Positions 55,230-60,674 of a stretch of DNA of 64,000 bases are shown here, piece after piece. The DNA lies in contig NZ_FSRT01000001.1 of the NCBI RefSeq assembly GCF_900143015.1, positions 1,178,001 through 1,242,000 on the forward strand, read 5' to 3'. Every line of letters starts with the position of its first letter. Positions within the stretch are counted from its first letter, which is position 1. The notes beneath the pieces were generated by a model. The model was given only the letters and a program-made list of their open reading frames with translations. It made no database searches and had not been told where the DNA came from. This DNA comes from Fibrobacter sp. UWB11. Its GTDB lineage: Bacteria > Fibrobacterota > Fibrobacteria > Fibrobacterales > Fibrobacteraceae. The translations under genes were made by a program, and so were the position numbers.

Positions 55230-55260
55230 TTAATTCCTAACTCCGAATTCCGTATTCCTA
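55230..55260 (-). repeat. Heptad array starting at the stop codon of the barrel gene
   Basis: Minus strand from the stop TAG: TAGGAAT, ACGGAAT, TCGGAGT, TAGGAAT, then TAA. Period of exactly seven bases with a GGAAT core. Confidence 0.7.
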
Positions 55261-57342
55261 ATTGCCAAAAGTCCAGACGATGCCGTAAGCGAAGCGGAGA
55301 CCTTCAGGCGTGTAGCCGGATTCAGGCGCGTAAATGCTGTGGTTGAAGTTCTCGATGCGGTTATACAGTTCAAACGAGAGAATCTGCATACGCGCTTCGA
55401 AATCCATCGCTAGATATTTCTTGAGAGAGACGAGCTCCGGCTCGCCTTTTTCGTTAATGGTGCAGTCATAGCGATTGTTAAACCACTGGAAATCGACACG
55501 GACACTCACGCCAAGCCTATCCCTGACAAATCGATTCTGCCAATGGATGCTGCCCTTATAATAAAGGGACGGTGTATCAATAAGTCTTGTTCGCGTGATT
55601 TTTTGACCGCGTTCAAAGTAGAACTTCCAGTTACCAAGGCGGAAGCCCACTTGCATTAACCAGTCAAGCGTATGTGCATGGTCCAAATTTTCGTAGCGGA
55701 ATGCAGACTCAACGGAATCCGCAACTTTGGCATACGTTGTATCTCTCGTTTCCATTGTTTCGTAGTTCACGATATACGTTGAAGTTTCATACGTAGAGTC
55801 CAAACCTCCGTTCACAGCCCACCTGGGTTTAATCAAGTTATTGGCATGTTCGTAGCGGAGCCCAAGTCCATAAAAGACATCACGTTTTTTCCAAGAAATA
55901 GTCGCTGTTGCGCGGTCGCGAACTTCATATTTCAGATTTTCATTCGGGAAAGCGACACGGCCTGTTTCGGTAAGCCTGAGTTGTGTTACATCGGGGAACT
56001 TGTTATCGTGGCGGTACGATGCGTTCAGCAAAAGATCGTGGGGGAGGAGATATGTTCCGTCAAGTGAAAAAGCAGGTGCAAATTCTACCGTATCTAAAAC
56101 AGAACTGTTGCGCTGCATGCCTGCCTGTGCGCGGAAAAGAACCTTTCCGAAAAGCGTATCCGAAACTTCGGCATAGCCTATTTCGCGGTCCTGATAGTAC
56201 GTCTGTTTAATCTCATCATTGCCCGTTTCATCGGTATTTACAAATTCATATTCAAAACGGAGCCTCGGGTTCAAGAACATGTTGTAGCGAATATCGAAGT
56301 TTCCGAGAATCGTTTCAAAATTGCGAACTTTACTCGTGTCAAAATAAGTCGTATTGACGGTGCGCAGTCCAGTTTCGCTATAAGTCGTATCTAATCGCTT
56401 CGTAATCTTCGGAAGATTGCGCATTTCGATTTCGTGATTGCCGTAATGAAATTCGGTACCAAGAGTCAAGTTCTTGATGGGGTAGAATTCAACACCGCCA
56501 CCATAAGTGCGAGTTTCGATAATGATTCTGTAAGGGTCTGTTTGGAAATTTCGTACAGTCGGATCGAGCGTATCGAGCAAAACCTTATGTGTCGAATTGT
56601 CTGCATTGTCGAGACTTAAATAATTTATCTTAACAAACGCCTTGCCGTAACCGAAACGCCATGTAACAATCGGCTGAAGGTGCATGCTGTTCATTGCAAT
56701 GTTTCGACCGCCAAACGGAATTTGCGTAGAGTCACGCCCCAAAGCAAAGTACGGAGAATGAGTCACCGGCTGGTACTCGTAGGATTTAGAAAGCAAATTC
56801 GAATGGCTTGATACGCCAAGGTCAAGCGTAACCGAATCCGTAATAAGGCGGCGGAATTCAAGGCGAAGGGCGTTGCCTTCAAATGCACTACGTTCCCAAT
56901 TAACATCGGTAATAGGCGTATCGACAGGAATGCCATGGCGTTCTTCAAAGAGAATTCCATTTTCGCCATTGAGCGCAAGCGTCGATGCATCGTAGCTTAA
57001 ACGGGTTGTGTAAATACCAGCAAGCTTGCTCGGATAGCGCTTGCTGAGCGTTCCTATACCAAGAGACCTTGCCGGGAGTTCCGGACTGCCAAGGATGGAC
57101 GTCCCCAGCACCCATTCGGATTTTTGCCCCGAAACGTCGTATGTTCGTTGCATGACTTCACGCAGTGGGATTACCCAACGAGCGGCATCAGTTTCCCTGG
57201 GAGCCGGATCGGGAGCGTTTACCGTTTCAAAAACGGAATCTTGCGGGGTCGGAAGAACACTCTTCTTTGCATGGATAACATCAGCAAAAACGCTTGAAAC
57301 AAGCGCTGACAAAACAGCAATTAAAAAAATTCCGCGATTCAT
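55258..57342 (-). CDS. Outer-membrane beta-barrel protein, TonB-receptor-like barrel
   Basis: With start ATG 57342 (overlapping the stop of the PHP gene, TAATG) the protein has 694 residues and a clean signal peptide, NRGIFLIAVLSALVSSVFA. Nearly the whole mature chain is alternating amphipathic strands with long turns, as in TonB-dependent receptor barrels (about 22 strands). I see no plug domain or TonB box, so it may be a large porin-like barrel instead. Ends IVWTFGN. Ligand unknown. The longer reading from 57417 would add 25 residues inside the upstream gene and is rejected. Confidence 0.8.
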   Translation of the reverse strand: MNRGIFLIAVLSALVSSVFADVIHAKKSVLPTPQDSVFETVNAPDPAPRETDAARWVIPLREVMQRTYDVSGQKSEWVLGTSILGSPELPARSLGIGTLSKRYPSKLAGIYTTRLSYDASTLALNGENGILFEERHGIPVDTPITDVNWERSAFEGNALRLEFRRLITDSVTLDLGVSSHSNLLSKSYEYQPVTHSPYFALGRDSTQIPFGGRNIAMNSMHLQPIVTWRFGYGKAFVKINYLSLDNADNSTHKVLLDTLDPTVRNFQTDPYRIIIETRTYGGGVEFYPIKNLTLGTEFHYGNHEIEMRNLPKITKRLDTTYSETGLRTVNTTYFDTSKVRNFETILGNFDIRYNMFLNPRLRFEYEFVNTDETGNDEIKQTYYQDREIGYAEVSDTLFGKVLFRAQAGMQRNSSVLDTVEFAPAFSLDGTYLLPHDLLLNASYRHDNKFPDVTQLRLTETGRVAFPNENLKYEVRDRATATISWKKRDVFYGLGLRYEHANNLIKPRWAVNGGLDSTYETSTYIVNYETMETRDTTYAKVADSVESAFRYENLDHAHTLDWLMQVGFRLGNWKFYFERGQKITRTRLIDTPSLYYKGSIHWQNRFVRDRLGVSVRVDFQWFNNRYDCTINEKGEPELVSLKKYLAMDFEARMQILSFELYNRIENFNHSIYAPESGYTPEGLRFAYGIVWTFGN

Positions 57343-58214
57343 TAGAACCATTCTGCACGCGATTTTTCGCGCCTTTCTCGAAGTGCCTGTACAACGGTGT
57401 ATGGCATTTTCATGCAACCAGGGGGATAGGTTCCGCTTTCTGTATGGAAATCAGAACCGCCTGTACCCACAAGTCCAAACTTTTGGGCCATCTCTTTGTA
57501 TTTACGGCCAACAGCACCTTTCTGTGCGGGGCTGTAGACTTCCATGCCCTGAATTCCCCATTCCACCATATTTTCGATGAACTGGTCACTGAGCCCCGAC
57601 TTGTACGGGTGGGCGAGTACGGCAATGCCGCCAGCATTTTCGATCAAGCGAATCGTTTCTTGTGGGTTAAGTCCCTTCTTTTCGACGAATGCAATGCAGC
57701 CATCCCCAAGGTATTTCGTGAATGCTTCGGAGAAGTTCGAAATGTATTCCTCATCGACTAGAGACATGGCAATATGCGGACGACCGATGATTTTACCTTT
57801 GCAATAAGAATGGACTTTTTCGAACGTGATGCCGATGCCTAGCGCGTTCAGCTTCTTGATAATCGCTTTTACACGGGCAATACGCTGCTTCGCGAAATCC
57901 TCAAGTTCCATGTTCAGGGCGAGGTTCGTCGGGTCGCAGAAGTATCCCAAAATATGGATGTCCTTGCCCTGCCATACCGCAGAAATTTCAATTCCCGGAA
58001 TGATTTCGAGCCCAATTTCCTTGGCGGGTTCTTCGGCAAGTTTATAGCTATCGAGGTTATCGTGATCCGTGATGGAAATACAGCGAAGTCCTTTGCGCTT
58101 GCAAAGCATCAACAGTTCGTCGACCGAGAGAGTCCCGTCCGAAAGCTTGGTATGCATGTGCAAGTCGGCATAGCCGCCATTTTCAGTGATGATTGTCGAA
58201 AACATCTTTTGCAT
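57342..58214 (-). CDS. PHP-domain phosphoesterase, RNase AM/YciV-like
   Basis: Polymerase-and-histidinol-phosphatase fold. Metal-binding motifs are DLHMHTKLSDG (His19, His21, Asp26), SITDHDN (Asp50, His51), IPGIEISA, LAHPYKSG, and SDFHTESG. Length 290 matches bacterial nucleoside 3',5'-bisphosphate phosphatase/RNase AM. The likely substrates are short RNA ends or pAp. It sits between a GT9-like fragment (two-base gap) and the barrel gene (overlap), so it is in an operon of three genes whose members have no obvious shared role. Confidence 0.85.
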   Translation of the reverse strand: MQKMFSTIITENGGYADLHMHTKLSDGTLSVDELLMLCKRKGLRCISITDHDNLDSYKLAEEPAKEIGLEIIPGIEISAVWQGKDIHILGYFCDPTNLALNMELEDFAKQRIARVKAIIKKLNALGIGITFEKVHSYCKGKIIGRPHIAMSLVDEEYISNFSEAFTKYLGDGCIAFVEKKGLNPQETIRLIENAGGIAVLAHPYKSGLSDQFIENMVEWGIQGMEVYSPAQKGAVGRKYKEMAQKFGLVGTGGSDFHTESGTYPPGCMKMPYTVVQALRERREKSRAEWF

Positions 58215-58829: not shown

Positions 58830-59417
58830 ATGCCTAAACAGAAGTTCTATGCAATAAAAAGCGAAAATGAAAAGAAAATCGTAACCACGTGGACCGAATG
58901 TGAAAAACTGACCCACGGGGTTAAAGGTGTTTTGTTCAAATCCTTCGGTTCCCGCGAGGAAGCTCTGGCTTGGCTCGACGGAATGGATGCCCCAGCGCCC
59001 GATGGGATTCGTGTATTTGTCGATGGTTCTTTTTCGCCTGGTTTTGGACCTGCCGGTTGGGCATTTGTTGTAACTGAAGACGACAAGGAACTTGCTCGTG
59101 GCTCGGGAATTACTGCATTTGATGCAGAAAGCCGCAATATCGATGGGGAAGTGATGGCTTCGTTCCAGGCCATGAAATGGCTAGACGCTCACGACATGAA
59201 CGGCGTCATTTGTCATGACTACGAAGGTATTGCACGCTGGGCAAAAGGTGAATGGCAAGCCAAGAGCAACATCGCCCAATTGTACGTAAAAGCGGCCAAG
59301 CCGTACTTGCACCGCATTCAGTTTGAAAAGGTCGCCGCCCATACCGGCGTCAAATGGAATGAACTTGTAGATAAACTTGCAAAAGAAGCAATCGCAAAAG
59401 CAAGGAAGGGTAAATAG
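58830..59417 (+). CDS. Ribonuclease H with N-terminal viroplasmin domain
   Basis: Degrades the RNA strand of RNA-DNA hybrids. Residues 4-50 are a viroplasmin/Cauli_VI domain (KFYAIKSENEKKIVTTW, KGVLFKSFGSREEALAWL), an RNA-duplex-binding module shared with eukaryotic RNase H1. The catalytic domain (residues 58-190) has Asp65 (VDGS), Glu107 (GEVMA), Asp130 (CHDYEG) and Asp181 (NELVDKLA), so the DEDD set is complete. No clear ribosome-binding site; a TATATAA lies close upstream, which may give a very short leader. The stop TAG begins a heptad array. Confidence 0.92.
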   Translation: MPKQKFYAIKSENEKKIVTTWTECEKLTHGVKGVLFKSFGSREEALAWLDGMDAPAPDGIRVFVDGSFSPGFGPAGWAFVVTEDDKELARGSGITAFDAESRNIDGEVMASFQAMKWLDAHDMNGVICHDYEGIARWAKGEWQAKSNIAQLYVKAAKPYLHRIQFEKVAAHTGVKWNELVDKLAKEAIAKARKGK

Positions 59418-59535
59418 GTTATAGGTTTTAGGGGATAGGTCTTAGCATAAGTATCATGCACTTCGTGCATCAAAATAAGGGAGGCGAAGCCTCGTTTTTC
59501 TTCCTAAAAACCTAATACCTAAAGCCTAATCCCTA
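59415..59535. repeat. Inverted pair of TAG heptad arrays at convergent gene ends
   Basis: Plus strand: TAG at 59415, 59422, 59429, 59436 and 59443 (the first is the RNase H stop). Minus strand: TAG starting at 59535, 59528, 59521 and 59514 (the first is the aguA stop), then one at 59506. The arms are complementary enough to form an imperfect long hairpin. Between them are ATGCACTTCGTGCAT and GAGGCGAAGCCTC. Confidence 0.8.
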
Positions 59536-60555
59536 ATCTGCTTCGTGCTTGCTCATGCAGTGGAGGCTGCCGCCTTCTTCAATCACAGTGCGGCAATCAA
59601 TGCCTATCACCTTGCGATCCGAGTACACGCTCTCGAAATACTTCTTAGCCTTAGCATCGTTCGGGCACTTGTATTTCGGGAAGATAAGTCCACCGTTCAC
59701 GTAGATGTAGTTCATGTACGATGCCGGAAGAATCTGGCCGTCATCAAGCACGCGCTGCGGCGGGAGCGGGAGCGTATCGACCTTGGCGCTCTCGTAGTGG
59801 CTCTTGAGCCAACTTTCGATGAACTGCTTGGCTTCAGTCAAAATCGCATAGTTGGGGGAGCGCTTGTTGTCCGTCATGCACATGACGACTCGGTCTTTTT
59901 CGACAAAGCGAGCAACGTTATCGATGTGGCCGTCCGTATGGTCTCCATGCAATCCGTGCGGGAGCACGAGCAATTCCTTGAGGCCGAAGGCCTTGCAAAG
60001 AGATTTCACGACCTTTTTCAAGTCCTTTTCGTCATTGCGGTTCTTGCCGACCAAGCAATCTTCGGTCGTGATACCAAGACCGTCACCGTTGACTTCTATA
60101 GCGCCGCCTTCAAAGATGAACGGGACGCTTTCGTTGAGTGGGAGTTTTTGCTTTTCGGCAATCTTCTGCGGAATGGCGTTGTCGAGTCCCCATGGCGGGA
60201 ACTTGGCGCCCCATGCGTTAAATTGCGTTTCGGTGACAACCTTTTTGTCACCCTTCTTCATAAAGAACGGACCGTAGTCGCGAATCCAGATGTCGTTCGT
60301 CTTGATGACGATAAAATTCACTGGGAACGGGCGATTAGCAAGAGCCGCCTTTTCTTCGTCGGTCAAGAAGTTCTTGGCGGGGAGCAACAAGTTCACCGGC
60401 TGGAATTCCGTGATGTTACGGATAAGTTCTACGTAGAACTTGCGGATATTGATGCCGCGTTCACCATACCAGTTCGTCTTGTTATGCGGGAAAGCAAGCC
60501 ATGTGGCGCTCTGCTTTTCCCATTCCGCCGGGTAACGAATTGAATTTTTCGTCAT
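59533..60555 (-). CDS. aguA: Agmatine deiminase
   Basis: Hydrolyses agmatine to N-carbamoylputrescine and ammonia; member of the peptidyl-arginine-deiminase-like (PPAD) family. The active-site segments are FEGGAIEVNGDG, HGLHGDHTDGHIDN and the C-terminal nucleophile Cys333 in GGSLHCMSKHEA. WIRDYGPFF is the substrate-binding segment. 340 residues, normal. It lies downstream of aguB in the same direction, 116 bases away, separated by repeat DNA. Together they form a two-step route from agmatine to putrescine. Confidence 0.93.
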   Translation of the reverse strand: MTKNSIRYPAEWEKQSATWLAFPHNKTNWYGERGINIRKFYVELIRNITEFQPVNLLLPAKNFLTDEEKAALANRPFPVNFIVIKTNDIWIRDYGPFFMKKGDKKVVTETQFNAWGAKFPPWGLDNAIPQKIAEKQKLPLNESVPFIFEGGAIEVNGDGLGITTEDCLVGKNRNDEKDLKKVVKSLCKAFGLKELLVLPHGLHGDHTDGHIDNVARFVEKDRVVMCMTDNKRSPNYAILTEAKQFIESWLKSHYESAKVDTLPLPPQRVLDDGQILPASYMNYIYVNGGLIFPKYKCPNDAKAKKYFESVYSDRKVIGIDCRTVIEEGGSLHCMSKHEAD

Positions 60556-60588
60556 GGAAAAAATCCTTTATATTAAATCTTTGGTCAA

Positions 60589-60674
60589 TAGTCATTAGTC
60601 AATGGTCCTTAGTCTTATAATTGCAGCTTTGCTGCCTTTTTTACTAATAGCTAATGACTAACGGCTAACAACTA
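60589..60674. repeat. Second inverted heptad structure, between aguB and aguA
   Basis: Minus strand: TAG starting at 60674, 60667, 60660, 60653 and 60646, the first being the aguB stop. Plus strand arm: TAG at 60589, 60596 and 60610, with TGG at 60603. The centre holds GCAGCTTTGCTGC followed by T6, which reads as a terminator on the plus strand and a hairpin on the minus. Confidence 0.78.

Follow-up and report, generated by a model that had tools for sequence, protein, structure and literature searches.

The sequence from 59415 to 59535 of the window (the whole 64,000-nucleotide stretch of Fibrobacter sp. UWB11 DNA analysed here) is probably one copy of a short, dispersed, foldback-like intergenic element of Fibrobacter, in which two inverted arms of degenerate heptads, each a TAGG followed by three free bases, flank a core of two small GC hairpins. 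This reading is based on the dispersion of the copies, their architecture, the covariation of their hairpins and the replacement of stop codons in relatives. At this site, an RNase H gene with Cauli_VI and RNase_H domains (58830..59417, plus strand) has as its stop codon the first TAG of the left arm (59415..59445, plus strand; TAGGTTA TAGGTTT TAGGGGA TAGGTCT TAG), where TAG recurs at 59415, 59422, 59429, 59436 and 59443. From the other side, a PAD_porph or agmatine-deiminase-like gene, the aguA homologue (59533..60555, minus strand), stops at the first TAG of the right arm (59512..59535, minus strand; TAGGGAT TAGGCTT TAGGTAT TAG), where the minus-strand triplets start at 59535, 59528, 59521 and 59514. 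These are the TAG triplets that the first-pass annotation had placed at seven-base spacing from two convergent stop codons, and every one of them is present. Between the arms lie core hairpin 1 (59456..59470; ATGCAC-TTC-GTGCAT) and core hairpin 2 (59481..59493; GAGGC-GAA-GCCTC, followed by GTTTTTC on the plus strand), neither of which is assigned to a strand. As had been proposed, the arms pair into a long imperfect stem, and it encloses the two hairpins (-43.8 kcal/mol, z = -3.8, 0/200 shuffles as good); the 141-nt stretch at the site folds far better than shuffles on both the plus and the minus strand. A second element, of the TAGT class and with a single GC hairpin as its core (60582..60674, no strand assigned), is found between the agmatine-deiminase-like and CN_hydrolase genes, where its minus arm begins at the TAG stop of the CN_hydrolase gene; it is identical in G130 and G104 (G000 denotes this Fibrobacter genome, other G numbers denote relatives, and L numbers denote loci in relatives). 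A third heptad array (55231..55263, minus strand; TAGGAAT ACGGAAT TCGGAGT TAGGAAT) begins at the TAG stop of the gene at 55258-57417 (minus strand), genes having been called with a simple codon-usage script.

The seven-base period is a property of the genome and of much of the phylum. In a sample of 864 kb, made up of 800 kb plus the 64-kb window and covering 23% of the 3.76-Mb genome, there are 58 runs of four TAGs spaced at period 7, as opposed to 0-1 at each of the other periods from 4 to 15 and 0 in a Markov simulation, and chance is excluded genome-wide as the source of the TAG heptads. An anchor-free self-similarity scan of the same sample gave 38 arrays with a lag of 7, compared with 0-1 for lags of 4, 5, 8, 10, 11 and 13. 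Over the whole genome, a five-TAG pattern has 47 matches and the reversed pattern 0; across the phylum, it is matched in 103 of 168 genomes, the count per genome ranging between 0 and about 390. Several congeners lack TAG arrays entirely. Of the 88 arrays of at least three units in the 864-kb sample, 85 are intergenic, and most are not next to a stop codon on their own strand. The same genomes carry heptad families that contain no stop, AGACGAR and AATTCCG, which have the same period and are intergenic too. The tandem period of seven bases thus stands well above other periods, as in a heptad simple sequence repeat, and the unit within an array is not uniform, with TAGG and TAGT units varying in the 3-4 bases after TAG. 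In some congeners (G068, G089), GATTGAT-type heptads replace the TAG heptads, for example at L108 (G089), upstream of the aguA homologue; given these congeners, the heptad period is, judging by the sequences compared, more conserved than the motif.

The arrays are organised in pairs. Within 150 bp of each other in the sample, they are arranged as a plus-strand arm followed by a minus-strand arm in 21 convergent pairs and no divergent ones, and the two arms are usually of one class (9 TAGG/TAGG, 11 TAGT/TAGT and 1 TAGT/TAGC; concordance of TAGG versus not-TAGG, p = 3e-6). In the TAGG class, the core between the inverted heptad arms consists of two small GC hairpins, and paralogous copies can be aligned together with this core over about 118 bp at 71-80% identity. 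When 26 copies taken from several species are compared, the TAGG and CCTA rungs show almost no change, whereas the three bases separating successive rungs differ from copy to copy and are for the most part unpaired. Both core hairpins covary in these 26 copies, with 97.3% of cells paired and two-sided changes at 10 pairs; 38 cells carry two-sided changes against 10.9 in shuffles, 0/500 shuffles reach as high, and slid controls collapse. One-sided G-U cells number only 2 in the two hairpins against 35 cells changed on both sides, a scarcity that hints at a palindrome kept as DNA. Spacers on opposite arms show no excess complementarity within elements over that between elements (9 TAGG-class elements of G000), and in 18 distinct copies their complementarity is 0.500 within and 0.558 between elements (P = 0.0007 in free register, 0.06 in fixed register). 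Simple copying from arm to arm was rejected on these grounds, as the spacers on one arm do not reproduce those on the other and are, if anything, less complementary; perfect palindromes may be avoided for real. GC mini-hairpins of the form GCGGC-NNN-GCCGC also occur apart from the core, outside or within heptad arms (L085, L091, L093, L094 and the G105 C1:482577 region, L131), often right after TAG and ahead of CAG. A second dispersed palindromic repeat, of the GTCATCCTGAGCGAAG...GGATCC type, shares gaps with the heptad elements and is sometimes found inside them or in their place, as seen upstream of the aguA homologue in L081, L084, L089 and L092 and inside the element at G000 C1:517261-517382 (L044).

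Copies of the element are numerous and unevenly spread. With a covariance model built on the TAGG element, 28 copies are detected in this genome and at least 45 in G130, G134, G125, G132, G118, G071 and G110, a lower bound that lies near the number of candidates scored; there are 0 in G060, G105, G062, G069, G136 and others, the relatives being represented by one genome per species, many of them metagenome bins. Repeats that spread typically have such an uneven distribution among the species of a genus. The presence or absence of elements also differs between species, and at the junction between the RNase H and agmatine-deiminase-like genes there is no element in G104, G105 and G060, where the two stop codons adjoin. 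In G130, the same element is found at this junction with a right arm of 5 units compared with 4 in G000, a difference of exactly one heptad, so that a change in copy number, for which the first-pass annotation had suggested comparing strains, is seen between species. Other relatives carry other families there (TAGTGGT in G111, TAGGAAG in G131, AGACGAR in G134, TTAGAAC in G067 and a hybrid in G077). As the two genes are also paired in more distant relatives (L169, L172, L180, L186-L188), separated there by a short spacer that contains no array, the empty state of this junction is probably ancestral.

Across the genome, the places occupied by arrays tend to be shared between species. Among gaps of at least 60 bp, an array is present at the same gap in G104 or G105 for 15 of 25 array-bearing gaps here as opposed to 1 of 104 array-free gaps (p = 3e-12), with G104 and G105 counted separately, such that the comparisons are not fully independent. 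Of 17 shared sites, counted whatever their length, 5 nevertheless differ in arm class, with TAGG in one genome and TAGT in the other. At G000 C1:1864861-1864943, the core GCGCCATAGGCGC, which is absent elsewhere in the 1.66 Mb examined, is kept though both arms differ between species. Some shared copies are 100% identical between species, with 77-92% identity in the flanks 60-400 bp away; for three elements that match G104 completely (G000 C1:412518-412613, 1755706-1755808 and 1959889-1959978), the flanks reach only 77-91%, which would fit either recent exchange or strong constraint. Chromosomal addresses are thus more stable than the arms found at them, with unit families switching on both arms, and this combination is the least explained part of the system.

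Where an array meets a coding end, it supplies the stop codon. In the 864-kb sample, at least two further in-phase TAGs follow the stop in 14 of 174 TAG-stop genes compared with 1 of 408 TAA-stop genes (p = 3e-7), a genome-wide excess at TAG stops for which the first-pass annotation had proposed a scan; it is repeated in G104 (8/93 TAG-stop versus 2/189 TAA-stop genes, p = 0.003) and is weak in G105 (2/81 versus 1/200). Stop-borne arrays begin at unit 1 in 13 cases, at unit 2 in one and at unit 3 in one, and a possible reason for this exact start is that elements insert at the TA of a stop codon. In nine comparisons, the array-less orthologues of array-bearing TAG stops end in TAA in 5 cases and in TAG in 4, a split close to the background for TAG genes, which indicates that a pre-existing TAG was not required, and no more than that. 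As previously noted for this site, 7 is 1 modulo 3, and any frame entering a TAG arm is therefore stopped within three units, which makes such insertions cheap. The RNase H genes of relatives illustrate this: in L151, L162 and L170, the frame passes two heptads and is stopped by the third TAG, leaving tails that are encoded by the array out of frame (VDSRK in L151 and L170, VGSRQ in L162), while the proteins of L154-L157 gain SG from the array. In some relatives, 5-6 C-terminal residues are gained in this way. Copies show no preference for gene 3' ends, as 56 regions are divided among 36 tandem, 9 convergent and 11 divergent gaps, in line with the 34.9, 6.5 and 14.6 that gap lengths would predict (chi2 p = 0.38). 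Taken together, the TAA stops in orthologues, the tails read from arrays, the stop-less families and the lack of a 3'-end preference make the supply of a stop codon look like a by-product of the array and not its purpose.

In the preferred reading, the element sits between genes as many copies that belong to several unit families, and in a copy abutting a coding end the element's own TAG becomes or replaces the stop codon. As frames close within three units, its presence there costs the protein a few residues and is tolerated, and its spread, by recombination or by an enzyme, may be selfish or near-neutral. Routes of spread may include transposition, homologous recombination that exchanges cassettes, and template switching inside palindromes. 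The complete 3.76-Mb genome has no match to any of the four common transposase families searched (Y1_Tnp, DDE_3, DDE_Tnp_1 and Transposase_mut). Among the few clean empty sites compared, no clean target-site duplication was seen. Mobilisation by a RAYT/REP system was rejected, given that PF01797 (Y1) has 0 matches in G000 and control genomes were positive, as was an autonomous transposon flanked by heptad arms, given that distant convergent arrays enclose ordinary cellular genes and not transposases. Family change at constant addresses counts against simple transposition as well, because simple transposition does not predict it. It is conceivable, though doubtful, that a foldback system without a visible transposase operates here, in which addresses would be stable, the family of both arms would be switched together, and the palindrome would be maintained at the DNA level via template switching or cassette exchange, as opposed to ordinary transposition or selection on RNA.

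A rather improbable alternative is that the structure is a functional mRNA 3' structure or bidirectional transcription terminator, selected to end or protect the adjoining transcripts. Such a role would suit the compensatory changes in both hairpins, the run of T that follows hairpin 2 on the plus strand and the consensus of this hairpin, which is terminator-like on both strands, and the full conservation of some elements between species; identical copies amid diverged flanks would also fit a selected function. Against this, terminator-like sites in the region (6) are not above those in shuffles (4.4), 11 of the 56 regions lie in divergent gaps, such that the class as a whole does not have the 3'-end location of intrinsic terminators, G-U intermediates are almost lacking, unlike in an RNA-selected helix, and the element is missing from the same junction in sister species. 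No Rfam 15 covariance model matches at the elements, and a known structured RNA was rejected.

It is improbable too that the array is a heptad microsatellite produced by replication slippage and nucleating on TAG stop codons, as the first-pass annotation had offered in one of its two explanations. The one-heptad difference between G000 and G130 and the in-phase excess at TAG stops are in keeping with it, and heptads are known to be over-represented in bacteria, with slippage proposed as the source, as cited in later work (PMC4692102; PMC4679880). Seeding on existing TAG stops did not hold up in the form given, as the arrays are organised into two-armed elements with a conserved core, TAA is found in 5 of 9 array-less orthologues, and the frame passes two heptads in some relatives. 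Slippage leaves unexplained the paired inverted arms of one class and their conserved core, as well as the arrays far from stop codons, and the units of one array mostly differ in their spacer bases.

A binding array for a protein that reads TAGG or TAGT rungs, such as a nucleoid, partition or RNA-binding protein, would explain the invariant rungs and free spacers seen in the 26 copies, but this is quite improbable when one address can carry different unit families, both from genome to genome and inside a single genome, and several congeners lack any TAG arrays. Hardly credible is the other explanation first offered, a fail-safe stop in which TAG heptads were selected to close three frames after read-through or frameshift: every frame is closed within 21 nt and 14 TAG-stop genes in the sample have the in-phase series, but the first in-frame back-up stop comes only 21 nt downstream of the first TAG, stop-less families share the period and intergenic setting, most arrays are not beside a stop on their own strand, the spread follows gap length, and the TAA-stop genes, which are the majority, do without arrays.

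The preferred reading, a dispersed foldback-like element, can be set beside several described systems. No named element like this was known to the first-pass annotation, a statement that is half right, as heptad repeats and stops in three frames have been described in other phyla (PMC4679880; PMC4692102). One example is the TAACTGA heptad, whose intergenic direct repeats have been described in Beggiatoaceae, Cyanobacteria and Bacteroidetes together with, for Beggiatoaceae, the three-frame stops that they create (MacGregor, 2015; PMC4679880). There, one exact unit is repeated directly, mainly before start codons, with essentially no inverted pairs and no core (PMC4679880), whereas the Fibrobacter units are degenerate, belong to several families and form inverted pairs around a covarying core. 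The GGGNATC heptads of Xanthomonas and GGGGA(C/T)T heptads of Nostoc (Rehm, 2015; PMC4692102) are likewise seven-base and intergenic, with some convergent inverted pairs in Xanthomonas, and their length varies between related strains at the same genes (PMC4692102); they are G-quadruplex-forming runs with no described core, while the Fibrobacter units do not form G4 structures, and one family can take the place of another at a given address. A survey from 2007, as it is cited in PMC4679880 and PMC4692102, found heptads to be over-represented and proposed polymerase slippage.

REP elements and eukaryotic foldback transposons have some of the layout in common with the Fibrobacter element. Like REP/BIME sequences with RAYT transposases (PMC3733652), the Fibrobacter elements are short extragenic palindromes with compensatory stem changes, present in many copies and patchy between species, but the genome has no Y1 transposase, the arms are tandem heptads, and there is no GTAG or CGTC tag at the end. 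Like MITEs, they are short, non-coding, dispersed inverted-repeat elements in intergenic gaps, with terminal inverted repeats that are imperfect in that rungs pair and spacers do not; they differ in that the arms are tandem heptads, no transposase partner was found among the four families and no target-site duplication was seen. In the eukaryotic foldback transposons Tetris and Galileo, as presented in PMC4079207 and the works cited there, terminal inverted repeats likewise consist of short direct repeats in tandem, one set on either side of a middle domain, with a variable number of repeats, and the autonomous partner is often missing. According to the same sources, those transposons measure hundreds to thousands of bases and, for Tetris, make 8-10 bp target duplications, while the element described here is bacterial, measures about 120 bp and shows no duplication, the likeness being one of layout only. 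None of the systems compared is known to bring together arms of degenerate heptads, a core that covaries and families that can be exchanged for one another. No description of heptad or palindromic repeats in Fibrobacter was found in the literature searched, subscription papers being outside its scope.

The finding accounts for an odd arrangement of stop codons and adds a repeat family to a phylum of gut bacteria that degrade fibre, where the literature searched describes no such family. Heptads are reported to be the most common of the long tandem repeats in many bacterial genomes, and the Fibrobacter element provides a test case for how they originate and disperse when no transposase is evident, and for the way in which repeats between genes rewrite stop codons and the C-termini of proteins.
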